A stretch of DNA of 64,000 bases from assembly GCF_000153465.1 (NCBI RefSeq), contig NZ_CH672387.1:2333903-2397902 (forward strand), in the 5' to 3' direction. Positions 41,537-53,705 of the stretch are shown in pieces. Source of the DNA: Aurantimonas manganoxydans SI85-9A1 (lineage in GTDB: Bacteria > Pseudomonadota > Alphaproteobacteria > Rhizobiales > Rhizobiaceae). A program made the translations under genes and the position numbers. The notes below the pieces were generated by a model, which was given only the letters and a program-made list of their open reading frames with translations, made no database searches and was not told the origin of the DNA. How positions within the stretch are numbered: position 1 is the first letter of the stretch; each line of letters starts with the position of its first letter.

Positions 41537-42397
41537 TCATGCGGGTTCGCATTTGTAGAAGCCGCGATAACCGACCGTCAGCCCCTGATCGAGCGTGAAG
41601 ACCAGCTCGGCATCGGATCGCCAATCGGCGTCTTCCCCCAACGAACGGACGGCGACGGACACGCCCGACGCACTGTAGGCGACGCCGGTCTCCGTCCGGT
41701 CCCGCGCTTCCAGCGGTACGAGAACGCCGTTCAGTTTCATCGCCCCGTCACCGCCGTCCTGTGCGGCCCAGAAGATCGGATCGGTTTCGCGGCTGCGATG
41801 GAAGACGCAGCGCGAACCGCCCTGAAGGATCTGATCTGCCTCGGCCTTCGGCATCGGAGAGGGATCGAGCGTCGAGATCAGGGCCTGGCCAAGGGCGTCC
41901 TCCACGGTGCCGACCTTCGCCGGCGGGTCCTGATAGATGGAATCGACCGTGTTGCCGTCCGACACCTCGGCGATGAGGTAGCGCATCTCGGCAATCTCGC
42001 GCCGCTGCGCCTCGATGATTTCGTCCGCCAGTTTCCGAACGCGCGGATCACGAATCTGGGCCCGCTCCGAGGTCATGATGGCGATGGAGTGGTGCGGAAT
42101 CATCGCCTGCATGTAGCTCGAACCGGAAACCGTGACCTGGCTGCGCACGAGCCACAGGGAGAGCGCGAAGACGATGACGGCGCCCGCGAAGATCGCGATG
42201 TTCAGCGCCTTGTTGGCATACATTCCCAGCATGTAGGCCAGCATGATGACGGCCATGGTGGCGCCCATCAGGATCGCCATGTAGGTGCGCGTCTCCGAAA
42301 AGAAGACGTGCTCCAGGGCGTAGGTGTTGAGATACATCAGGACGAACATCACCACGGTCGAGGTGAGGATCATCAGTCCAAATCGCACGTAAGACAT
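41537..42397 (-). CDS. Membrane DUF305 protein with extra C-terminal domain
   Basis: Protein of 286 residues. Four hydrophobic helices occupy about residues 5-110. A DUF305 (ferritin-like) segment follows, with SYMQAMIPHHSIAIM and AQRREIAEMRYLI, whose His, Met and Glu residues suggest metal binding. Residues about 195-286 form a separate domain bounded by two cysteines (SRCVFHRSRETDP ... YRGFYKCEPA). A broken copy of this domain lies at 43585-43728. The ATG follows GGGAGAAG. Just upstream on the same strand are cytochrome c genes, so a role in copper or redox handling outside the membrane is plausible but unproven. Confidence 0.82.
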   Translation of the reverse strand: MSYVRFGLMILTSTVVMFVLMYLNTYALEHVFFSETRTYMAILMGATMAVIMLAYMLGMYANKALNIAIFAGAVIVFALSLWLVRSQVTVSGSSYMQAMIPHHSIAIMTSERAQIRDPRVRKLADEIIEAQRREIAEMRYLIAEVSDGNTVDSIYQDPPAKVGTVEDALGQALISTLDPSPMPKAEADQILQGGSRCVFHRSRETDPIFWAAQDGGDGAMKLNGVLVPLEARDRTETGVAYSASGVSVAVRSLGEDADWRSDAELVFTLDQGLTVGYRGFYKCEPA

Positions 42398-42412: not shown

Positions 42413-43006
42413 CTAATCGGCCTTTGGGGCGGGGGCGATGCCGTCCCCATCTCGAGCTTCACCGCCACCCGCGGGCACACCGTTCCCGTCGGTATCGGCG
42501 GCGTCGCCTGTCATCATTCGAAAATCCTCAGAGGTCAGCCCGGGCAACCGCGCCACGAACGCGGTCAGGGCGACGATCTCGTCGGGTTTGTGGTGATCGC
42601 CGAAGGCCGGCATCCCCGTCATCCTGATGCCGTTCTCGATGATCCAGCGGATTTCTTCGGGTCGCCACTCTGCCGCTGCTTCCGCCAGATGTGGCGGCTC
42701 CGGTCGCATTCCTCGCGACCACTTCGCCGGGTCCTGACCCGGCGCGCCATGGCAGTAGACGCAACTTTCAGCGTAACGAGCCGCGCCTTCAGCGATAAGC
42801 TCGTCCGGGAAACTTTCGGGCAACACAACGTCCCCTGCACGTCGTTCGACTGAGCGACGCATCGTCGTGTCCAACGTCCAGCGCACGGCATCGGTATGCT
42901 GAGCGGAAGCAGCGATGTTGTATGCTCCGGTATATGTCACAGTGAGCCATATGGCGATTGCGGTCAGGACGGTTCCGAAGATGAGACCGAAACCGAACCT
43001 CTTCAT
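42413..43006 (-). CDS. Membrane-anchored mono-haem cytochrome c
   Basis: c-type cytochrome of 197 residues. An uncleaved N-terminal helix (about residues 5-25) anchors it in the inner membrane. The haem motif is CVYCH near residue 85, and the sixth ligand is probably Met in GIRMTGMPAFGDHH. A Gly/Asp-rich tail (GDAADTDGNGVPAGGGEARD) follows the haem domain. It lies 15 bases before the DUF305 gene, in one transcriptional unit, and could pass electrons to the nearby oxidase. Confidence 0.88.
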   Translation of the reverse strand: MKRFGFGLIFGTVLTAIAIWLTVTYTGAYNIAASAQHTDAVRWTLDTTMRRSVERRAGDVVLPESFPDELIAEGAARYAESCVYCHGAPGQDPAKWSRGMRPEPPHLAEAAAEWRPEEIRWIIENGIRMTGMPAFGDHHKPDEIVALTAFVARLPGLTSEDFRMMTGDAADTDGNGVPAGGGEARDGDGIAPAPKAD

Positions 43007-43584
43007 CGTTCATCTCTCCCGATAACATCGGTTGCTTGCCGGGTTATGTCCGGAGGCGCCATGTCGGTGCGCATCCAGTTGTCGTATGGAACTGTTGGCG
43101 GAACGGAAAACGACCAGGAGGGTTCCGCTCAACTCTGGTGGGCGGCTACTCACCCCGGATTGCGAGAGGCCCCTACGTAACGAAAGTTCGATAACTGGAA
43201 ACAGGGCGGTTGCTGAGCGGCGGACCTGCCGCTCAAGCCGTACGACGAGTTCGCCGCCGTGCCGCGCAGACGACACTTACGGCCGGCCTCTGCCCTGCCG
43301 AAAGACGGCGCCAGACGAGTTCGGCCTTCAGCATTTTGAATACTGGGCTGCAGCATCATTTTGCTGAACGCCTGCCTCCTCGGACAGCCAGATCGGGATG
43401 CCGCGCCGCCTCGGCTCAGATGTGCACTCGACGGCGCGGTGTCGTGGCGCGGTCGGTGTACCCATCTCGAGACTTTTTGCCTCTGGGTCGGCGGCACAAG
43501 CCGGGATGCTCGTTTCTACGTCCGCGTGCAGACAAGATCCCCGCACCCGTTGCATATTCGTCGGCAACTCTGCCGTGGACGCTC

Positions 43585-43743: not shown

Positions 43744-44115
43744 TCACTGCAGCGTATAGAGATAGGCCGTGATGTCGCGGGCCTGCTGCTCCGTCAGTCC
43801 CATGTCGGGCATGACGCTGCCCGGTGCGATCGCCTGGGGCTCGCGCAGCCAGTGGATCATGTTGGCCGGCGTGTTGCGCAGCAGCCCGGCAAGATAAAGC
43901 CGGTTGGCCATATGGTCGAGCGGCGGGCCGACGAGACCCTCGGCCCCGTCGATGCCGGGGATGATGTGGCAGGCGCCACAACCGGCCTGGCGGATGCGAA
44001 CCGCGCCGATCGCGACATCGCCGATGGCCTCGGCTCGCGAGTGCGCCGCATCGTCCCCGCAGCCGGCGAGGACGAGCATCACCAGGCCCGCGGCGGCACG
44101 TATTACAGACCGCAT
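43744..44115 (-). CDS. Cytochrome c lipoprotein of the oxidase cluster
   Basis: Small cytochrome c of 123 residues. The signal peptide ends in the lipobox LAGC (Cys19), so it is lipid-anchored. Haem motif CGACH lies near residue 46, with a probable axial Met in GSVMPDMGLTEQQARDI. Its haem domain resembles the one fused to the oxidase subunit II in this cluster. It overlaps the preceding membrane-protein gene by 13 bases, and is the last gene of the oxidase operon. It is a likely electron donor to the CuA site. Confidence 0.87.
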   Translation of the reverse strand: MRSVIRAAAGLVMLVLAGCGDDAAHSRAEAIGDVAIGAVRIRQAGCGACHIIPGIDGAEGLVGPPLDHMANRLYLAGLLRNTPANMIHWLREPQAIAPGSVMPDMGLTEQQARDITAYLYTLQ

Positions 44116-44556: not shown

Positions 44557-45174
44557 TCACCTCAGATGGGGCGTGATGTAGAGGCTGAAGAAGACTGCCA
44601 GCCAGACGGCATCGACGAAGTGCCAGTACAGGGCGCCGATGGCGACCGGCGCCATGCGCTGGCGGTCGAAATAGCCCAGAGTGCTCCACACGGTCAGCAC
44701 GGCCAGGATGACCAGCCCGACCACGACATGGGCCAGATGGAATCCCGTCACCGTGAAATACATCGAGCCGTAGGAATGAGCCGACAGGGTGAAGGGCTTG
44801 TTGAGCCATTCCTTGAGCTGCAGACCGACGAATATCGTGCCCAGCAGAAGGCCGACCAGCAATCCCGCCACCAGCCGGCCGCGGGACCCGGTTTCGGCGC
44901 CCTTTTCCGCGAACCAGACGGCGATACTGCTGGCGATCAGGATGGCCGTGCTCGGCGCCGACAGCGTGAAGGACGGCAGTTCGGCCGGATACCAGTTCGG
45001 GCCGGACTGGGTGGCCAGATAGAAATAGCTGAACAGGAGATAGGAAAAGAGGACGGCCTCGGTCGCAACGAGGGTCACCATGCCCCACCAGCCCGAGGCC
45101 CGGCGGGCAATGCTGCCGACCGCCAGCGATCCGATCTGCAGGGGCGCCTCGCCCACGGGGACGGCATCACGCAT
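44557..45174 (-). CDS. Cytochrome c oxidase subunit III-like protein
   Basis: Haem-copper oxidase subunit III family, 205 residues, with five hydrophobic helices rather than the seven of mitochondrial-type subunit III. Characteristic segments are WWGMVTLVATEAVLFSYLL, YGSMYFTVTGFHLAHVVVGL and the terminal GALYWHFVDAVWLAVFFSLYI. The ATG at 45174 overlaps the subunit I stop by eight bases, which supports it over the longer frame. It supports the catalytic subunit; no cofactor is bound in this family. Confidence 0.9.
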   Translation of the reverse strand: MRDAVPVGEAPLQIGSLAVGSIARRASGWWGMVTLVATEAVLFSYLLFSYFYLATQSGPNWYPAELPSFTLSAPSTAILIASSIAVWFAEKGAETGSRGRLVAGLLVGLLLGTIFVGLQLKEWLNKPFTLSAHSYGSMYFTVTGFHLAHVVVGLVILAVLTVWSTLGYFDRQRMAPVAIGALYWHFVDAVWLAVFFSLYITPHLR

Positions 45175-47110
45175 GGCCCGGCTCCCGCTTCTGGCCGAGA
45201 TCGGCCCGTGGCCAGAGCCAGGCAAGCAGGCCGACAAGGATCGCCAGCCCAGCACCGGCCGCAACCCACCACCAGTGCAGGAGAAGCGCGGCGAAGCCCA
45301 GGGTCATGGCGAGGGTCACCAGGAACGGCCAGGGATCGTCGCCGGGCATTTTCACGATCAGGTCCGGCTGGGCGTCGATCGGCGTCGTCACCAGCATCTC
45401 CTTGCCATCGTCGAGCAACAGCCCGCGTTCGAGGGAGGAATCGCCGCGGCCTTCGTCGAGCCGGCTCTCCCACAGGGGATGGCGGCTGGCGATGACAGGC
45501 AGCACCGCGAAATTGTAGGGCGGCGGCGGCGACGAGACCGCCCATTCCAGCGTCGGCGCGTCCCAGGGATTGGCGCCGGCCGGCGCGCCGCGCCGCAGGC
45601 TGACCAGGACGTTGACCAAGAGCATGGCGAAACCGACGGCGAAGATGAAGCTGCCCACCGTGGTGAGCATGTTCATCGCGCTCCAGCCGATGTCCTGCGG
45701 ATAGGTATAGATCCGGCGCGGCATGCCCAGAAGCCCGGTCCAGTGCATTGGCAGGAAGCCGAGATTGAACCCGGCGAAGATGGTCCAGAAGGTCCAGCGC
45801 CCCAAGCGCTCGCCCAGCATCCGCCCGCTCATCTTGGGAAACCAGAAATGCAGCCCGCCGAGCACGCCGAACAAATTGATGCCGATCAGCACGTAATGGA
45901 TATGCGCCACGACGAAATAGGTGTCGTGCAATTGCAGATCGGCGGGCACCGACGCGGTCATCACGCCCGACACGCCGCCGATGACGAACATGGCGATGAA
46001 GGCGGCGAAGTAGAGAAAGGCCGCCGAGACGACGATCCGGCCGGTCCAGATGGTGGCGATCCAGGCGAAGACCGCGATCGCACTGGGAATGGTGATGATG
46101 AAGGAGGCACCGCTGAAGAACGACATCGAGAGGTACGGGATGCCGGTGGTGAACATGTGGTGCACCCACACGCCGAAACCCAGCGCCATGGTGCTGATCG
46201 TTCCAAGCACCACGAGCGTATAGGCGACCAGGGGACGCCGACAGAACACCGGCAGGACGTCGGACGCCATGCCCATGGCCGGCAGCACGATGATGTAGAC
46301 CCAGGGATGGGCGAAGATCCAGAACAGGTGCTGCCACAGGAGCGGCTCGCCGCCCCCGCCGGTCTCGTAGAAATGCGTCCCGAACTGTCGGTCCATCCAG
46401 AGCAGGAAGAAGGCGAGACTGACGGCGGGCACGGACAGGAGAATGCCCATCGAGATCGTCGTCGTTCCCCAGACCATGATCGGGATGCGGTTGATCGACA
46501 TGCCGGGCGCCCGGCACCGCAGGAAGGTGACGACGAAGTTCGCCGCGCCGACCGTGGTGGATATGCCGAGGAAGATCATGCCGAGGGCATAGAAATCCAT
46601 GTTCGGGCCGGGATTGAAGTCCTTCAGCGAATAGGGTGCGTAGTTGAACCAGCCGTCATTCGGCGCCGCGCCGATCAGGAAGCTTGAATACATGAACAGG
46701 CCGGAGGCGAGATACACCCAGTAGGAGAAGGCGTTCAGCCGCGGAAACGCCATGTCCCGCGAGCCGAAGAGCAACGGGAAAAGATAGTTCGAGAAGCCCG
46801 ACAGGATCGGCAGGGCATAGAGGAAGATCATCGTGATGCCGTGCATCGAGAACAGCTGGTCGTACTGTTCCGGGGTCACCACGCTCTGCTCGGGCCCGGC
46901 GAGTTGGATCCGCATGATCAGTGCCTCGATGCCGCCCGCGATGAGGAAGGCGAAGGCCGTGACGATGTAGCGGATGCCGATTTCCTTGTGATCGACGGTG
47001 CCGATCCAGCCCATCAGGCCGGACTCCGTCTCCCAGATCGCCCGGAGCCGAGCTTCCAGTTCCGGCGTCGCGACGCCCGCCTGCGGGATTTTCTGATGCG
47101 GCTCTGCCAC
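45167..47110 (-). CDS. ctaD: Cytochrome c oxidase subunit I lacking canonical channel residues
   Basis: Catalytic haem-copper subunit of 647 residues, GTG start after GGGGAGAG. Haem and CuB ligands are all present: His90, His268, the pair His317-His318, and His403/His405; the cross-linked Tyr272 and the His395-Asp396 metal pair also remain. The D-channel entrance Asp119 is kept. The HPEVY motif, however, reads HPWVY (Trp270 for Glu286 in Rhodobacter numbering), and the K-channel motif PTGIK reads PSAIA (Ala346 for Lys362). Two extra C-terminal helices end the protein. It should reduce oxygen; proton pumping is in doubt. Confidence 0.93.
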   Translation of the reverse strand: MAEPHQKIPQAGVATPELEARLRAIWETESGLMGWIGTVDHKEIGIRYIVTAFAFLIAGGIEALIMRIQLAGPEQSVVTPEQYDQLFSMHGITMIFLYALPILSGFSNYLFPLLFGSRDMAFPRLNAFSYWVYLASGLFMYSSFLIGAAPNDGWFNYAPYSLKDFNPGPNMDFYALGMIFLGISTTVGAANFVVTFLRCRAPGMSINRIPIMVWGTTTISMGILLSVPAVSLAFFLLWMDRQFGTHFYETGGGGEPLLWQHLFWIFAHPWVYIIVLPAMGMASDVLPVFCRRPLVAYTLVVLGTISTMALGFGVWVHHMFTTGIPYLSMSFFSGASFIITIPSAIAVFAWIATIWTGRIVVSAAFLYFAAFIAMFVIGGVSGVMTASVPADLQLHDTYFVVAHIHYVLIGINLFGVLGGLHFWFPKMSGRMLGERLGRWTFWTIFAGFNLGFLPMHWTGLLGMPRRIYTYPQDIGWSAMNMLTTVGSFIFAVGFAMLLVNVLVSLRRGAPAGANPWDAPTLEWAVSSPPPPYNFAVLPVIASRHPLWESRLDEGRGDSSLERGLLLDDGKEMLVTTPIDAQPDLIVKMPGDDPWPFLVTLAMTLGFAALLLHWWWVAAGAGLAILVGLLAWLWPRADLGQKREPGHA

Positions 47111-47120
47111 GGCTCTCCCC

Positions 47121-48215
47121 TCAGTCCAGCGTCGCGAGATAGGTGCGGATGGCGTGCAGTTCGGGGCCCGAAATACCCGTATCGGGCATGTGGCTGCCCG
47201 GCTTGAGTGCCTGCGGCGCGGCGATCCAGCCCGACAGATGCCCCTTCGTGTTGGGCAGCATTGCGGAGGCGATCGTCGTCCGGCTCATCAGATGGGTGAG
47301 ATCCGGCCCGACCTCGCCTGCGGACCGGGTGCCGCGCACCGTGTGGCAGGCGCCGCAGCGCAGGCGAAACGCCTGCCGTCCGGCGACCGCCAGCGAGCCG
47401 GGCGATGCCGGCTCCGCGTCCGCGGCCTGCGCATCCCACCAGGCCGTGAAGTCGTCGGGCGCGTCGACGAACATGCGCATGGCCATGTTGGTGTGCTGCT
47501 GCCCGCAATACTCGGTGCACTGGCCGCGATAGACGCCGACCCGATCGCCCTGGATCCAGGTCTCGTTGATCTGTCCGGGAATGGCGTCGGTCTTGCCGGA
47601 CAGCGCCGGAACCCAGAAGGAATGAATGACGTCGGTCGAGCGCAGCCTGATGCGCACCGGCTCCCCGAGGGGAATATGCAGTTCGTTGGCCGTCTCGAAG
47701 CTGCGTGCGGGATCGTCGGGATCGACGTAGCGCGCCTCCCACCAGAATTGCTGCGCCGTCACCTCGATCATGAAGGACGGCTCACGGCCAGGCGCGGCAA
47801 TCCGGGCCATGAGGTCCACCGTCCAGGCGGTGAAGCCGATCAGCACGAGGGTCGTCAGAACGAGGCCGGCATGGATCCAGCCGATCCCGCCGGGCGGGCG
47901 CGAGACAGCGATGATGCGGCCGCCCGCCTGCAGATCCGGGTCGCGGCGACGCAGGATCCCGGTGATCACCATGGCGCTGATGACGACGACCACCAGCACC
48001 GAGACCGCGATCAGCGCCCAGAGCAACGGGACGGTCATGTCGCCCTTCGCGCCGAAGGTCTCCAGGTAATACATCGGCGTGTCGGCTGCGCGCGCCGGCA
48101 GCGGGGCGGCCGGAACCGTCCCCCCCAGGGCGACCGCCATCACGGAGGCCGGCCGCACCCGAAAGGGCCGGCCCGCCTCGCAAAGATCGACTCGGGAATG
48201 CGGATCCGTGGTCAT
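47121..48215 (-). CDS. coxB: Cytochrome c oxidase subunit II with fused cytochrome c domain
   Basis: caa3-type subunit II, 364 residues. A signal-like N-terminus is followed by two helices (about 63-87 and 111-136). The cupredoxin domain carries an intact CuA site, with His in STDVIHSFW and the set C-x-E-x-C-x3-H-x2-M in QCTEYCGQQHTNM. A C-terminal cytochrome c domain has CGACH near residue 294 and a Met ligand in SHMPDTGISG. It is the first gene of the oxidase operon, ten bases before subunit I, and receives electrons from a cytochrome c. Confidence 0.93.
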   Translation of the reverse strand: MTTDPHSRVDLCEAGRPFRVRPASVMAVALGGTVPAAPLPARAADTPMYYLETFGAKGDMTVPLLWALIAVSVLVVVVISAMVITGILRRRDPDLQAGGRIIAVSRPPGGIGWIHAGLVLTTLVLIGFTAWTVDLMARIAAPGREPSFMIEVTAQQFWWEARYVDPDDPARSFETANELHIPLGEPVRIRLRSTDVIHSFWVPALSGKTDAIPGQINETWIQGDRVGVYRGQCTEYCGQQHTNMAMRMFVDAPDDFTAWWDAQAADAEPASPGSLAVAGRQAFRLRCGACHTVRGTRSAGEVGPDLTHLMSRTTIASAMLPNTKGHLSGWIAAPQALKPGSHMPDTGISGPELHAIRTYLATLD

Positions 48216-48930: not shown

Positions 48931-49230
48931 CGAATACCTCCACATCTCCTCCGTTCTGTCGAAACGGCGGAGACGTGTCCCTAAAGTAGGATAAGCACCG
49001 CCGTGGCGATCACCGGCCCCGAGGGTAACAGCCCCTGCGCCAAAGGGCGCATCGGAATTTCTGTTGCTTGCCAACGAATGGCGTTTCGCTGGGCGATCGC
49101 CGCTTATGCTCCGCATTGCCATCCAAGGACGTCCAATCGGGGATCCCGGGTGTGCGTCTTCCTGTTTCCGGCGAAAGTCACATGATTATATCCCTTGGAT
49201 GACGCCATCTTCACGAACAAGCGAGACGGA

Positions 49231-50730
49231 ATGAGGCAGGGCACACCCCACGCGCCAATCGGCCATGGACACGAAGAGGCGGAGGCGCGCGCACCTTCCG
49301 CTCTGTTGCAGGCGGGACGGAACTGCCGCAGCGTCTCGCGCGCCGAGACGGCCACCGTGCTCGTCGATGGCGCGCGTTATTTCGCGCGTCTGGACGCGTG
49401 TCTCGAAGAGGCCCGGCGCTCGATCGTCATCGTCGGCTGGGACTTCGACGCCAGTGTCCGCCTGCGCCCCGATGCCGACGGCAACGGCACCATGCTGGGC
49501 GACCGACTGCGCTCTCTGGTCGAGGCGCATGAGACGCTCGAGATCCACATCCTGATCTGGAGCTTCGCGGTCGCGCATGCCCCCAGCCATGGCATGTCGC
49601 TGCTCTTCGGCGGCGACTGGCAGGACCATCCGCGAATCCATCTCAAGCTCGACCGCACGAACCGTTTCTACGCGTCCCATCACCAGAAGATCGTCCTCAT
49701 CGACGGGGTTCTCGCCTTCGTGGGCGGGATCGACCTGACCGTCGGCCGCTGGGATACGCAGGAGCATCGCCCAGCCGACGAAAGACGGGTCGAGGCCGAC
49801 GGATCGAAGGCGCGGCCGGTGCATGATTGCCAGGTCGCCCTGACGGGCCCCGTCGTGGACGACCTCCTGGCCATTGCGGCTGCGCGCTGGCAGCGGGCCA
49901 CCGACGCGGCGCCGCGATTTGCAGGCCCGGCCACAGACCCGATCGCCGGCCAACCCGACCGATCCCCCGATTTCAGGCATGTGCCGGCGGGCATCGCGGT
50001 CACCGATCCGGGCGGCGGCTGGCGCGGTCCACCGCCCGTGCGCCACGCGGCCTGGCTGACGGTCGACGCGCTGCGCAGCGCACGGCGGACGATCTACATC
50101 GAGAACCAGTATTTCGCCGGCGCGCTTGCCCGCACCATCCTGCCCGAACTGCTCGAGGCCCCGGACGGCCCGGAGATCGTGGTCGTCACCACGCGCAGCA
50201 TGAACGGCTTCGTCGAGCAGTTGTCAGAAGGCACGAACCGGGACCGGCTCCTGCGCCATCTGAAGCGGTTCGACCGGCACGACAGGCTGCGGGTCTTCCA
50301 CCCGATGCAGGGTCCGGTCTCCGACCCCGACGAGATCTTCATCCATTCCAAGATCCTCGTCGCCGACGACAGCTTCCTTCGGGTCGGGTCGACGAATTTC
50401 AACAACCGCTCGATCGGCGTCGACACCGAATGCGACCTCGGCCTCGTCCCCGATACACCGGAGCATCGGGCGGCGATCCGCACGGTCATGGCCCGGCTGG
50501 TCGGCGAGCATCTCGGCGCCGATCCGGCGACGGTGCTGGAGACGTTCGCGGAAACCGGATCGCTGATCCGCACCATCGACCGGCTGAACGGCGGCGACCG
50601 GCGCCTCGTCGGCTTTCCCGCACTTGGCTCCTCAGGCCCGCAGCGGCCGCAACTCGGTACGCGTCTGCTCGATCCGATCGCTCCCTTCGGCACGGCAGCC
50701 TGGTGGCGCGGTCGCTTCAGCTGCTCCTGA
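49231..50730 (+). CDS. Phospholipase D-family protein
   Basis: Two-HKD protein of 499 residues. The first motif is HHQKIVLIDG and the second HSKILVADDSF, each with the H-x-K-x4-D pattern, followed by GSTNFNNRS. An NQYF segment (IYIENQYFAGAL) precedes the second motif, as in cardiolipin-synthase and PLD-like phosphatidyltransferases. No signal peptide is evident. The ATG at 49231 follows GAGACGGA; a TTG at 49195 is an alternative. It could hydrolyse or transfer phospholipid head groups. It meets the LPG-synthase-like gene tail to tail with a 14-base overlap. Confidence 0.87.
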   Translation: MRQGTPHAPIGHGHEEAEARAPSALLQAGRNCRSVSRAETATVLVDGARYFARLDACLEEARRSIVIVGWDFDASVRLRPDADGNGTMLGDRLRSLVEAHETLEIHILIWSFAVAHAPSHGMSLLFGGDWQDHPRIHLKLDRTNRFYASHHQKIVLIDGVLAFVGGIDLTVGRWDTQEHRPADERRVEADGSKARPVHDCQVALTGPVVDDLLAIAAARWQRATDAAPRFAGPATDPIAGQPDRSPDFRHVPAGIAVTDPGGGWRGPPPVRHAAWLTVDALRSARRTIYIENQYFAGALARTILPELLEAPDGPEIVVVTTRSMNGFVEQLSEGTNRDRLLRHLKRFDRHDRLRVFHPMQGPVSDPDEIFIHSKILVADDSFLRVGSTNFNNRSIGVDTECDLGLVPDTPEHRAAIRTVMARLVGEHLGADPATVLETFAETGSLIRTIDRLNGGDRRLVGFPALGSSGPQRPQLGTRLLDPIAPFGTAAWWRGRFSCS

Positions 50731-51679
50731 CCGAGGCGCCCCACGACGACGTCGTCGAGCGCCAGACGGCTTCGGTGATGGCCAGAACCAGGCCACCGAT
50801 GGCGAGCGGCACGAGGAAATAGGTGAAGCGGAAGACCAGCACCGCGGTCAGCAGGCCGCGACCGGACAGAAGCGTCACCACGACGGCTTCGAAGACACCG
50901 AGCCCGCCGGGCACGTGGGTCAGCATGACGCCGGCATTGGCCAGCACATAGACCGTGGCCGCCGACAGATACGGGACTTCGGCGATCCCGAGCAGCGCCT
51001 GGTGGAGGCAGGCCGCGACCAGGGCGAAATTGGTGGCGCCGAGCACGACCTGCCCCAACGCCAGGCGCAGGCTCGGCATTTCCAGAACGAAGGAGCGGAA
51101 TCTCAGGGGGCGGCGCAGGAAGGCGGCCAGAAGCAGATAGATGCCGACCCCCAGCGCCGCGACGACGCCGATGGCAAGGACCATGCCCTGGCCGAGACCC
51201 GTCACCTCCGCCGCGAGCGCGGGGCGCAAGAGCACGGCCAGTGCACCAAGAGTGGCGAGGCCGACGGTCACTGTGAGCCCGGAAAACAGGATCAGCTTGG
51301 CGACATCGCCGGTCGACAGGCCCCAGCGCCGGTAGAAGCGATAGCGGATCGCGCCGCTGCTCAGGCCGGCAAAGCCGATGGAATGGCCGAGCGATAGCGA
51401 CACGAATGATGCCAGCGCCACCTTGGGATAGGCCAGCCGGTGCCCGACATAGCGGGTGCCGAGAAGATCGAACAGCGTGAGCGTCGCGTAGCTTCCCGCC
51501 GCAAACATGCCGGAAAGGGCCAGATGGTCGAGGGGAAACGCCCGCAGCGCCTGCATCAGTTCGTCAATGCTGTAGTCCCGCAGCGTCCGCCAGATCAGAT
51601 AACCGGCCAGCGCCACGAAGCCGGCGATGCCGATGCGCCAGAGCCAGGTCAGCCATCGCCCCTTCGCATCCGCATCCAT
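50717..51679 (-). CDS. Lysylphosphatidylglycerol-synthase TM-region (UPF0104) protein
   Basis: Polytopic membrane protein of 320 residues with about eight helices (LPG_synthase_TM family, the flippase half of MprF without its transferase domain). Family phrases are SLGHSIGFAGLSSGAIRYRFY near residue 95 and NAGVMLTHVPGGLGVFEAVV near 250. Known relatives transport lipids or cationic lipids. The ATG at 51679 is the first in a sensible context; the longer frame runs through the DUF427 gene. Its pairing with a phospholipase D-like gene suggests a membrane-lipid role. Confidence 0.85.
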   Translation of the reverse strand: MDADAKGRWLTWLWRIGIAGFVALAGYLIWRTLRDYSIDELMQALRAFPLDHLALSGMFAAGSYATLTLFDLLGTRYVGHRLAYPKVALASFVSLSLGHSIGFAGLSSGAIRYRFYRRWGLSTGDVAKLILFSGLTVTVGLATLGALAVLLRPALAAEVTGLGQGMVLAIGVVAALGVGIYLLLAAFLRRPLRFRSFVLEMPSLRLALGQVVLGATNFALVAACLHQALLGIAEVPYLSAATVYVLANAGVMLTHVPGGLGVFEAVVVTLLSGRGLLTAVLVFRFTYFLVPLAIGGLVLAITEAVWRSTTSSWGASVRSS

Positions 51680-51864
51680 GTTCGTCTCCGATCGCAAGAA
51701 GTCAGTGGCCGGCGCCGCCGGATGCCGGCCGCGGCCCCGCGCCGCCGCCGAAGGCCACTGGAAAGCCGCCGCCCATCCGGCAGGCGGGCGGCGACGCGGC
51801 CGCGCCGCTCCATGCCGGCACGCTTGCAGGCCGCTGCCACGCGGCAGCGCCGCCCGATCACGCC

Positions 51865-52260
51865 TTACAGGGTCTCTTCGACCGCGCCGGCGGGCGGTCC
51901 TCCGACCTCGACCCGGACCTGGGTGGGATCGAAAGCGATATGGTCGCGCACGGCGCTCAGTTCGTCGACCGGGTCCGTATAGGCCCAGGCCGCGTCCTGG
52001 CCGGCGCGGTTCATCGCCGAGATCGTCCAGAACCGCGCCTGCCCCCTGGCTTCGGGTACGCCGCCGCGGTCGCTGTCGACGAAGAACGCCGTGTGAACGC
52101 GATCCTTGGGGATATAGTAGATCGGCTCGGCGCCCTCCTCGCGCACGAGAAGCGCATGGTCGGTGCTGGCGATGATGTCGTCGTGGAAATAGACCGTCAC
52201 CGGCTTGCGGATGTGGTCGATGGCATAACAGCCGGTTTGCAGGGTCCGGGCATCGGACAT
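51865..52260 (-). CDS. DUF427 domain protein
   Basis: A protein of 131 residues spanning a single DUF427 domain: IRKPVTVYFHDDIIASTDHALLV, then PIYYIPKDRVHTAFF and a late WAYTDPV motif, ending DHIAFDPTQVRVEV. The ATG lies eight bases after AAGGAG. The fold is a small beta barrel with no known enzymatic activity. It follows the zinc alcohol dehydrogenase gene by 54 bases on the same strand, a frequent companionship in soil alphaproteobacteria that has no established meaning. Confidence 0.88.
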   Translation of the reverse strand: MSDARTLQTGCYAIDHIRKPVTVYFHDDIIASTDHALLVREEGAEPIYYIPKDRVHTAFFVDSDRGGVPEARGQARFWTISAMNRAGQDAAWAYTDPVDELSAVRDHIAFDPTQVRVEVGGPPAGAVEETL

Positions 52261-52314
52261 GACATTCTCCTTTCCTTGACATGTGAACCGCCGCGCGGCG
52301 GACGGCGACGCGCC

Positions 52315-53535
52315 TCAAGCGGCGGGGTTCAGTTCCACTTTCACCCAGCCCTTGTTCTGGGCGTCGAAGGTCTCATAGGCAGCGATGACGTCGGTCATCG
52401 GTTCCATCTGGGACAGGATATGTTCGGGCTTCAGCCCGCCGCGCCGCACCAGTTCCACCAGTTCCTGGACGTACTTCTTGTGGTTGGCATTCCCCATCCG
52501 CATGGTGATGTTCTTGTTCATCGCCGTGCCGATCGGGAAGGCGTTGTGGCTCTGGGGATAGACGCCGATGATCGCCAGGGTGCCAGCCTTGGCCAGTGCC
52601 TCTGTGGCCCATTCGAGCGACAGGGACGGCGCGTCGCCGGCGGCAAAATGCGCCGCATTGGTGTCGGCACCCGCCTCGGCCAGCCGCTCGACCTGCTCGG
52701 CATATTGCTCGGCGCGCTTTTCCAGCACCCGCATCGGCCCCTTGGTGGGCATGAAGGCATCGACCCCGACGACATCGATCGCCCGGTCCGGCCCGATGCC
52801 GCCGGTGAGTTCGCGGATCGCCTCGATCGGGTTCTCTTCGTCGAAATTGATCGTCTCGGCGCCCAGTTCGCGTGCCTTGTCCAGCCGGTCCGGCAGACGG
52901 TCGACGGCGATCACCCGCTGGGCGCCCTTGTGCCAGGCCCCCAAAATGCTGAACAGCCCGACCGGACCGCAGCCCATCACCAGCACCGTCTTGCCGCGGC
53001 CGGCCTCGATATCGGCGATGTCGGCGCCGAACCAGCCGGTGGAGGCGATGTCCGAGAGGCAGATCGCCTGATGGTCGGTGATCTCCGGATGCAGCGGCAC
53101 GAGATTGACGTTGGCATGGGGAATGCGGGCATATTCCGCCTGCAGCCCGTCGAACGGGCCGGTTTGCTGCGGGCCGCCATAGAAGGCCGTCCCGGCGAGG
53201 TGACCGTTCGGATTGGCTTCGTCGCACTGGGCGGTATAGCCGTCGCGGCAGTAGGAGCAGTGGCCGCAGGCGATCGTCGACGGGATCACCACGCGCTGGC
53301 CGGGACGCAGATTGCGGACGCTGCTGCCCACCTCCTCGATCACGCCGACACCCTCGTGCCCCATGACGGTGCCCTCGACCATCCCCGGCATCGATCCGCG
53401 GATCATGTGCAGGTCGGTGCCGCAGATGGCGCTCGACGTGATCCGCACGATGGCGTCGGTCGGGTTCTTGATCGTGGGATCGGGGACCGTGTCCAGGCGA
53501 ATGTCGCGGATACCGTGGAAAACGACAGCTCTCAT
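52315..53535 (-). CDS. Zinc-dependent alcohol dehydrogenase family protein
   Basis: Medium-chain dehydrogenase of 406 residues. Catalytic zinc ligands are in SSAICGTDLHMIRG and GHEGVGVIEEVG. The structural zinc cysteines are in CGHCSYCRDGYTAQC. The NAD-binding motif is VLVMGCGPVGLFSILGA with Asp in AVDRLPDR, favouring NAD. The extra segment around residues 250-290 and total length resemble glutathione-independent formaldehyde dehydrogenase. It may oxidise formaldehyde or short alcohols. The start ATG at 53535 (MRAVVFHG) is the standard N-terminus. Confidence 0.9.
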   Translation of the reverse strand: MRAVVFHGIRDIRLDTVPDPTIKNPTDAIVRITSSAICGTDLHMIRGSMPGMVEGTVMGHEGVGVIEEVGSSVRNLRPGQRVVIPSTIACGHCSYCRDGYTAQCDEANPNGHLAGTAFYGGPQQTGPFDGLQAEYARIPHANVNLVPLHPEITDHQAICLSDIASTGWFGADIADIEAGRGKTVLVMGCGPVGLFSILGAWHKGAQRVIAVDRLPDRLDKARELGAETINFDEENPIEAIRELTGGIGPDRAIDVVGVDAFMPTKGPMRVLEKRAEQYAEQVERLAEAGADTNAAHFAAGDAPSLSLEWATEALAKAGTLAIIGVYPQSHNAFPIGTAMNKNITMRMGNANHKKYVQELVELVRRGGLKPEHILSQMEPMTDVIAAYETFDAQNKGWVKVELNPAA

Positions 53536-53705
53536 TTGCTGGATCCTCGTAGCTATGCGTGGTGGCTCGCTTTGATGGACAGGAGCAAGCGACAGCAGAC
53601 ACGGCGGACTGTGCCACTGCATTGAAGGTCAATGCGGACGGCCGGACCTTGATCCGTTGCAGTTTCGGTGGCTGGCTGCCGACCGCCCGTATGGTCGCGC
53701 CCCGC

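Follow-up and report, generated by a model that had tools for sequence, protein, structure and literature searches.

The A1 type of haem-copper oxygen reductase is defined by a glutamate at position 286 (278 in Paracoccus) in the D-channel, whereas A2 oxidases have a tyrosine in its place; the accessible part of the same survey of 1216 sequences leaves only four, all of them B-like, in which no type's channel residues are present (PMC3084760). Operons of the COX type a-II are described, in the accessible text of Degli Esposti 2014 (PMC4013037), by a COX1 of 630-670 amino acids (aa) fused to COX4, a five-helix COX3 and, often, pyrroloquinoline quinone (PQQ) dehydrogenases, and the available portion of PMC6431628 files types a and a-II as A1, subtype a. 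Archaeal oxidases, according to the part of PMC8239418 at hand, show variants of both the K- and the D-channel, and one scenario considered there has the K-channel lost several times. Losing the K-channel is thus not new in itself. Here we describe a cytochrome oxidase operon in a stretch of 64,000 nucleotides (the window) from Aurantimonas manganoxydans SI85-9A1 (contig NZ_CH672387.1, positions 2,333,903 to 2,397,902), whose subunit I has a tryptophan at the site of the D-channel glutamate and an alanine at that of the K-channel lysine.

Residues 93-556 of Rhodobacter sphaeroides subunit I, aligned to the window protein, served as the reference for numbering. The alignment is ungapped across helices VI-VIII with a constant offset of 16, which equates His268 with His284, Trp270 with Glu286, Tyr272 with Tyr288, Ser343 with Thr359 and Ala346 with Lys362; Asp119 corresponds to Asp132 with an offset of 13. 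Both substitutions, first proposed in a reading of the sequence alone (the sequence-only reading) with the same offset and without gaps, were thus confirmed. The window protein retains His90, 268, 317, 318, 403 and 405 as well as Arg465/466. With six histidines, the helix VI tyrosine and a CuA site in subunit II, the enzyme is, judged by its predicted residues, a family A haem-copper oxygen reductase. The claim that metal ligands, Tyr272 and Asp119 remain holds for the window and extends to relatives: the six His ligands, Tyr288 and Asp132 were found in 52 of 52 Trp-type sequences.

These sequences derive from a scan that fetched loci by overall similarity (the best 80 of at least 593) and from additional sampling of genome samples and plasmid matches. 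Among the best 80, every one of the 35 loci at least 59% identical to the window enzyme has Trp at the Glu286 site and none has Lys at the Lys362 site (Ala 27, Ser 4, Thr 2, Gly 2). Since helices VI-VIII align without gaps and all 35 similar loci share the Trp, chance or misalignment was ruled out. The 35 loci belong to Alpha-, Beta- and Gammaproteobacteria, one Acidobacteria bin and two Gemmatimonadetes bins; many are metagenome bins, including the sole Acidobacteria and Gemmatimonadetes members, and misbinning is possible. At the Lys362 site the 52 Trp-type sequences have Ala (41), Ser (5), Thr (3) or Gly (3), never Lys, and the K-channel Thr359 site is Ser in all of them. A survey for the DNA pattern encoding F[AG]HPWVY matched 7 of 385 genomes of the class and 6 of 398 of the phylum, with the window's own genome in both; three of the seven class matches (L101-L103) are an unrelated protein, presumably a ribosomal RNA methyltransferase, which leaves 4/385 and 6/398.

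Residues that might stand in for the missing ones were sought at several positions. The YS motif of A2 oxidases, which we take to be YSHPxV, is missing, as the sequence-only reading had noted: the window has FAHPW and the clade F[AG]HPWV, and position 283 is Gly (27) or Ala (25), not Tyr, in the 52 sequences. No acid occurs in any of the 52 at position 112, presumably the site of an engineered Glu relocation (Leu 38, Ser 9, Gln 2, Ala 1, Gly 1, Met 1), so the absence of a compensating acid was borne out at this site. The Tyr/Thr/Ser set that replaces Lys in B- and C-type oxidases was not seen: on our presumed mapping of the B-type alternative K-channel residues, Met stands at 295 and Ser at 299, and Tyr is absent. 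Nor does the window have the H-X-Arom-X-E motif of nitric oxide (NO) reductases, as it reads HPWVY and keeps Tyr272.

The coxI gene appears to be under purifying selection. Ratios of non-synonymous to synonymous substitution rates (dN/dS) against five relatives were 0.088, 0.184, 0.132, 0.239 and 0.110, obtained by simple counting with synonymous sites near saturation in the most distant pairs, and a pseudogene is unlikely at such values. An AlphaFold2 model of subunit I (predicted local distance difference test score 89.3, predicted template modelling score 0.92) has C-terminal helices at 594-611 and 614-631, a two-helix extension that is also apparent in hydropathy, and its top-ranked fold match is the caa3 oxidase 2yev_A.

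The two channels have fared differently. Beyond the Glu, the D-channel residues of type A1 are, in Paracoccus numbering, Asp124, Asn199, Asn113, Asn131, Tyr35, Ser134 and Ser193. Asp132, Asn139, Asn207, Ser142 and Ser200 are each conserved in 52 of 52 Trp-type sequences and Asn121 in 50; the Ser201 site (Paracoccus Ser193) is Thr in 51 and Ser in one, and Tyr48, equated with Paracoccus Tyr35 by motif rather than through the R. sphaeroides alignment, is invariant. An earlier set of 40 sequences had 86 polar columns, of which 36 were conserved in at least 39 sequences; these 36 include all seven D-channel sites (hypergeometric chance 0.0016). Among the residues tested, the predicted D-channel is therefore not lost, the terminal Glu alone being gone. 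In the K-channel, unlike the D-channel, the alignments show losses in two subunits, because subunit II also lacks the entry Glu: this residue occurs in 20/20 loci that encode a Lys-type enzyme (L083, placed in its own class by its second, Met-type protein, and 19 others) and in 0/72 K-less loci, i.e. loci without the lysine, that cover the column. The 72 comprise 40 Trp-type, 23 actinobacterial-type and 9 loci of a kind that we take to be CoxN- or CoxMNOP-like; L043 and L064 are gapped at the column. All 40 Trp-type loci have Ile, Val or Leu there. The suggestion that both proton routes are broken thus stands for the K-route (Lys of subunit I, Glu of subunit II) and fails for the D-channel, where the polar residues tested below the Glu are kept.

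Some further variation was seen around subunit II. In the CuA loop (C-x-E-x-C), the betaproteobacterial Trp-type loci L013, L015-L018, L020-L026, L028, L029, L031, L033, L035 and L036 have Gln in place of the Glu, and the Acidobacteriaceae locus L030 has Ala. In L083, from a Rokuibacteriota metagenome-assembled genome, a second divergent COX1-like protein with Met at the Lys362 site (L083:1364-3445) is encoded beside the Lys-type oxidase.

Two quick, unrooted maximum-likelihood trees were built without channel columns, one of 87 rows (two columns removed) and one of 107 rows (six removed). In both, a single branch (support 100 and 99) separates the K-less rows from the rest, so one change of the Lys suffices in this sample. 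Within the K-less rows the Trp clade comprises 34 (support 95) and 41 rows (support 96), with Trp in every row and the long-branched L043 in both, so that a clade fixed for Trp and devoid of Lys was recovered, close to the Trp/Ala clade that the sequence-only reading named as a supporting outcome. Its K-less relatives differ in their channel residues. The actinobacterial group has Glu or Asp at the Glu286 site and Gln at the Lys362 site; the Plantactinospora and Micromonospora oxidases L045, L046, L052, L053, L055-L058 and L063 combine Asp with Gln. The CoxN-like group keeps the Glu, has Gln for Lys, and has lost the D-channel asparagines, with Asn207 changed to Glu. A plasmid-borne group of seven sequences (support 99; hosts Sinorhizobium, Azospirillum, Ensifer, Rhizobium, Bradyrhizobium, Roseomonas and Caballeronia) has Asn in place of Asp132 in six and Ser in L162. 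On these alignments the D-channel is altered in several different ways within the K-less group. Members L111-L113 and L159-L161, with Asn at Asp132 and Glu286 kept, lie near a PQQ dehydrogenase (3/6) or an FdhF/YdeP-type oxidoreductase (3/6). The actinomycetotal L047 acquired Trp at Glu286 independently; its Lys362 site is Gln and its Tyr98 site Phe. A single origin of all Trp variants was rejected (approximately unbiased test on the quick tree, p 0.0066), and because L047 sits among Glu/Asp rows, Glu was replaced by Trp at least twice on these trees.

Dehydrogenase genes are frequent neighbours of the Trp-type operons. A PQQ or glucose-methanol-choline (GMC) dehydrogenase lies within 9 kb of 25/47 Trp loci, 2/25 CoxN-like loci, 3/25 loci of the actinobacterial set and 0/21 Lys loci. 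The 25 Trp loci divide into 20 with PQQ enzymes (one just 34% identical) and five with GMC enzymes (two partial). One of the two CoxN-like matches has 27% identity, and a third CoxN-like locus has an Fdh-type oxidoreductase; one of the three actinobacterial-set loci is L043, itself Trp-bearing. With full flanks (at least 6.9 kb upstream and at least 8.6 kb downstream) the counts are 18/35 for Trp, 2/25 for CoxN-like and 0/10 for Lys loci. The CoxN-like set is the fairer control. A PQQ dehydrogenase and a substrate-binding protein are encoded upstream of the operon in two genomes of the same genus (G004, G002) and one of the same family (G034; loci L140-L142). Both are missing from the window and from L139, its copy with 98% identity; one TIGR03075 dehydrogenase scoring above cut-off, 49% identical to that of the module, is encoded elsewhere in the window's genome. 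On a 133-kb plasmid of Methylocystis iwaonis (L109), the NCBI annotation lists a PQQ methanol/ethanol dehydrogenase, a substrate-binding protein, cytochrome c, coxB, ctaD, cox3, a hypothetical protein and an assembly protein; given this plasmid location, the oxidase-dehydrogenase module may move between genomes. The plasmid copy of Mesorhizobium sp. INR15 is accompanied by pqqABCDE genes as well, and that of Paraburkholderia sp. D15 by a GMC oxidoreductase with gluconate-dehydrogenase subunit 3.

We propose, with a probability of about one half, that the window encodes a working caa3-type O2 reductase of the a-II kind, in which the D-channel supplies the chemical protons past Trp270 and little or no pumping takes place. 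The donor would be a cytochrome c, which in many relatives receives its electrons from a dehydrogenase of the periplasm or the membrane; from it, electrons would pass through CuA and haem a to haem a3/CuB. Because the enzyme lacks both Glu and Lys and is nevertheless under purifying selection, the chemical protons must travel another way. The D-channel could have been kept as a water conduit whose terminal Glu is replaced by Trp; cytoplasmic uptake through it is suggested because its residues are conserved, and all chemical protons would then move past Trp270 along a water chain. As no protonatable gate is present and the Glu that would alternately deliver protons to the pump site is missing, little or no pumping would be expected, and energy would be conserved through chemical charge separation alone. 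For the window enzyme we infer the reduction of O2, the proton route, the lack of pumping and the electron donor alike. Trp270 may also affect O2 access: Leu246, among the residues of a proposed O2 channel ending near Glu286 in the accessible text of PMC4256069, is Val in 49 of the 52 Trp-type sequences.

A wider proposal is tentative and stands at somewhat less than even odds. The Trp clade would be a widespread natural class of the A family decoupled from pumping, with the K-channel removed in two subunits, a Trp gate and a D-channel reserved for chemical protons, acting as a complex III-independent electron sink for periplasmic PQQ/GMC dehydrogenases, while a sister branch would have arrived at a similar state through the loss of Asp132.

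Several observations weigh against the reading of the enzyme as a working O2 reductase with little or no pumping. In bacterial A-type mutants (bovine numbering, as given in the part of PMC12901375 at hand) E242Q, equivalent to Glu286, blocks the oxidative phase, and K319M, equivalent to Lys362, blocks haem a3 reduction; by analogy, an enzyme without both would hardly be expected to turn over, and something unseen must compensate. Outside the Trp clade, Glu or Asp is still present in most K-less relatives, so an enzyme can lose the Lys and yet retain the gate. The Fisher values for the dehydrogenase neighbourhood (p 6e-6 for Trp versus Lys, 25/47 vs 0/21; with full flanks, p 0.0006 for Trp versus CoxN-like and p 0.003 for Trp versus Lys) are uncorrected for kinship and overstate the contrast, because the rows are related and the Lys set consists mostly of Gemmatimonadetes/Chloroflexi bins with shorter flanks; taxonomy may explain part of it. 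Finally, 22 of the 47 Trp loci, including the window and L139, have no PQQ/GMC dehydrogenase nearby. Thirteen of the 17 such loci with full flanks, mostly betaproteobacterial, have a homologue of a 447-aa cytochrome c; the remaining four are L005, L006, L139 and the window.

Other mechanisms have to be weighed against little or no pumping. That the enzyme still pumps, through a D-channel water chain without Glu, with Trp270 as the gate and a relay moved elsewhere, for instance to Tyr98, is unlikely but has a probability that is not negligible. Going by its title, a study by Backgren from 2000 reports that an A-type oxidase does not need the Glu to translocate protons. The conserved D-channel residues would suit such a pump, as would the clade-specific Tyr98, Ser104 and Ser107 on helix II and the change of Leu246 to Val. 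The Tyr that takes the place of Glu in A2 oxidases offers a precedent (PMC3084760, accessible part). The periodicity of helix II, however, places Tyr98 only ambiguously owing to a one-residue gap; L047 has Phe at that site, and neither an acid nor Tyr occurs at 112 or 283. Cytochrome c dependent NO reductase takes its protons from the periplasmic side, and an oxidase doing the same with its chemical protons would be electroneutral and require neither Lys nor Glu; the D-channel is conserved though such a model does not need it, which makes this clearly improbable.

We consider it more doubtful still that the main substrate is NO or peroxide rather than O2: the unusual gate and the Val at the Leu246 site of the proposed O2 channel (PMC4256069, accessible text) would fit, but Tyr288 and all CuB and haem ligands are retained in 52/52 sequences, subunit II has CuA and cytochrome c parts, and Trp loci often lie beside PQQ dehydrogenases. 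Pumping through the H-pathway, with the D and K residues irrelevant to it, draws on the argument that this pathway is conserved in all families, a matter that the available text of PMC12901375 itself calls debated. Arg67 is conserved and, on our assignment, equivalent to the haem a formyl Arg (R. sphaeroides R52), but it is the sole H-pathway residue compared and the chemical protons would still need a route, so we give this mechanism very little credence. Least credible is a degenerate, inactive oxidase: two residues held to be essential are gone, but dN/dS lies at 0.09-0.24 and the active site and operon are conserved across three phyla.

A real, conserved respiratory oxidase lacking both textbook proton residues, with relatives often encoded next to alcohol or sugar dehydrogenases, may therefore burn O2 without pumping. 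Judging from single-residue mutagenesis, a family A oxidase can barely do without either the Lys or the Glu, and there has long been disagreement over how the D-channel Glu divides protons between chemistry and the pump. If our reading is true, four-electron O2 reduction can proceed without Glu286 and without Lys362. An enzyme that naturally has neither, with its D-channel otherwise conserved in three phyla, offers a ready test of which parts serve chemistry and which serve pumping, and a dehydrogenase-linked electron sink is a physiological setting in which weak coupling could pay off.

The window holds a complete caa3-type oxidase operon, in the order coxII-cytochrome c, coxI, coxIII, orf149 and cytochrome c (Table 1). 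Subunit I scores 485.6 bits with Pfam COX1 and 680.2 bits with NCBIfam CtaD (cut-off 670.75), and subunit II also contains the upstream CuA His. The inner ATG of coxIII overlaps the coxI stop by 8 bases, an overlap identical in Methylocystis. The coxII-coxI-coxIII order on one strand is kept in 39/39 other Trp-type loci scanned, with the cytochrome c position variable, and orf149 was detected at 23 of the 39. The genome has four PF00115 matches: L001 with canonical A1 motifs, the window enzyme, the CoxN-like L003 and L004, which judged from its sequence resembles a cbb3-type subunit.

Table 1. Features of the oxidase locus, with positions given in window coordinates.
Feature	Position	Strand	Basis or remark
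coxI/ctaD, subunit I, 647 aa, GTG start	45167..47110	minus	open reading frame (ORF) list; Pfam; NCBIfam
coxB, subunit II, CuA site CTEYCGQQH and C-terminal cytochrome c domain (CGACH)	47121..48215	minus	
coxIII, five transmembrane (TM) helices predicted by hydropathy	44557..45174	minus	listed ORF 44557-45264
orf149, hypothetical protein 3' of coxIII, three predicted TM helices	44103..44552	minus	
Small cytochrome c, last gene of the operon	43744..44115	minus	
Second cytochrome c (CBB3 type), possible electron donor	42413..43006	minus	probably a separate transcription unit; link suggested by proximity
DUF305/DUF6692 protein adjoining the second cytochrome c, uncertain link to the oxidase	41537..42397	minus	
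Trp270 codon, place of Glu286	46301..46303	minus	R. sphaeroides alignment
Ala346 codon, place of Lys362	46073..46075	minus	R. sphaeroides alignment
Asp119 codon, D-channel entry Asp132, kept	46754..46756	minus	Asp in 52/52
Tyr98 codon (helix II, R. sphaeroides Val110), candidate relay specific to the clade	46817..46819	minus	Tyr 50, Phe 2 of 52
Subunit II Ile114 codon, column of the K-channel entry Glu	47874..47876	minus	subunit II alignment

No EcfG-type general-stress promoter was found upstream of coxB with the one pattern tried. A GGAAC-N16-CGTT sequence, presumably resembling the alphaproteobacterial general-stress (EcfG) promoter, occurs at 43102-43126 on the minus strand, about 100 bases before the second cytochrome c gene. 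Upstream of the operon (49195-53622) lie genes for a phospholipase D, an LPG-synthase-like membrane protein, a DUF427 protein and a zinc alcohol dehydrogenase; a phospholipase D-like gene is also found near the Dinoroseobacter K-less oxidase L164.

Compared with the A1-type aa3 oxidases of Rhodobacter and Paracoccus, the window enzyme shares the fold, the ligands, Tyr288 and the Asp132-Asn139-Asn121-Asn207 channel, and differs in having Trp for Glu286, Ala for Lys362 and no entry Glu in subunit II. By the residue definition in the accessible part of PMC3084760, the Trp clade, as aligned here, does not qualify as A1. A2-type oxidases resemble it in lacking Glu286, in the caa3 architecture and in providing the best fold match (2yev_A); the window has neither their YS motif nor their Lys. 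As in type a-II, the window encodes a 647-aa COX1 with a COX4-like, two-helix C-terminal extension and a predicted five-helix COX3, and PQQ dehydrogenases lie near 20/47 Trp loci, though not near the window copy. The window operon thus matches type a-II except for the local dehydrogenase. Because a-II operons have been described with PQQ dehydrogenases (PMC4013037, accessible text), the dehydrogenase link of this operon kind is already known. That text, with sequence assignments placed in supplements, does not mention that Glu286, Lys362 or the Glu of subunit II is missing, and no report of Trp for Glu286 or of the double loss was found in the accessible literature, a search to which subscription journals and supplements did not belong.

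The relation to Bradyrhizobium CoxMNOP raised by the sequence-only reading holds in part. A CoxN-like paralogue encoded in the same genome (L003/L135), with Glu, with Gln for Lys and without the D-channel Asn residues, belongs to the same K-less group, but it is another enzyme on a separate branch, and CoxMNOP was therefore rejected as the identity of the window enzyme. CoxMNOP-like ccaa3 oxidases, with Gln at Lys362, share its K-less branch of the tree; unlike it, they keep Glu286, have lost Asn121 and Asn139 and have Glu at Asn207. An example of a ccaa3 oxidase comes from KF707 (PMC5492768, accessible part). The PQQ- or formate-linked oxidases of Sinorhizobium, Azospirillum, Roseomonas, Ensifer, Bradyrhizobium and Rhizobium etli are K-less like the window enzyme, whereas their D-channel is hit at the opposite end, with Asn at Asp132 and Glu286 kept.

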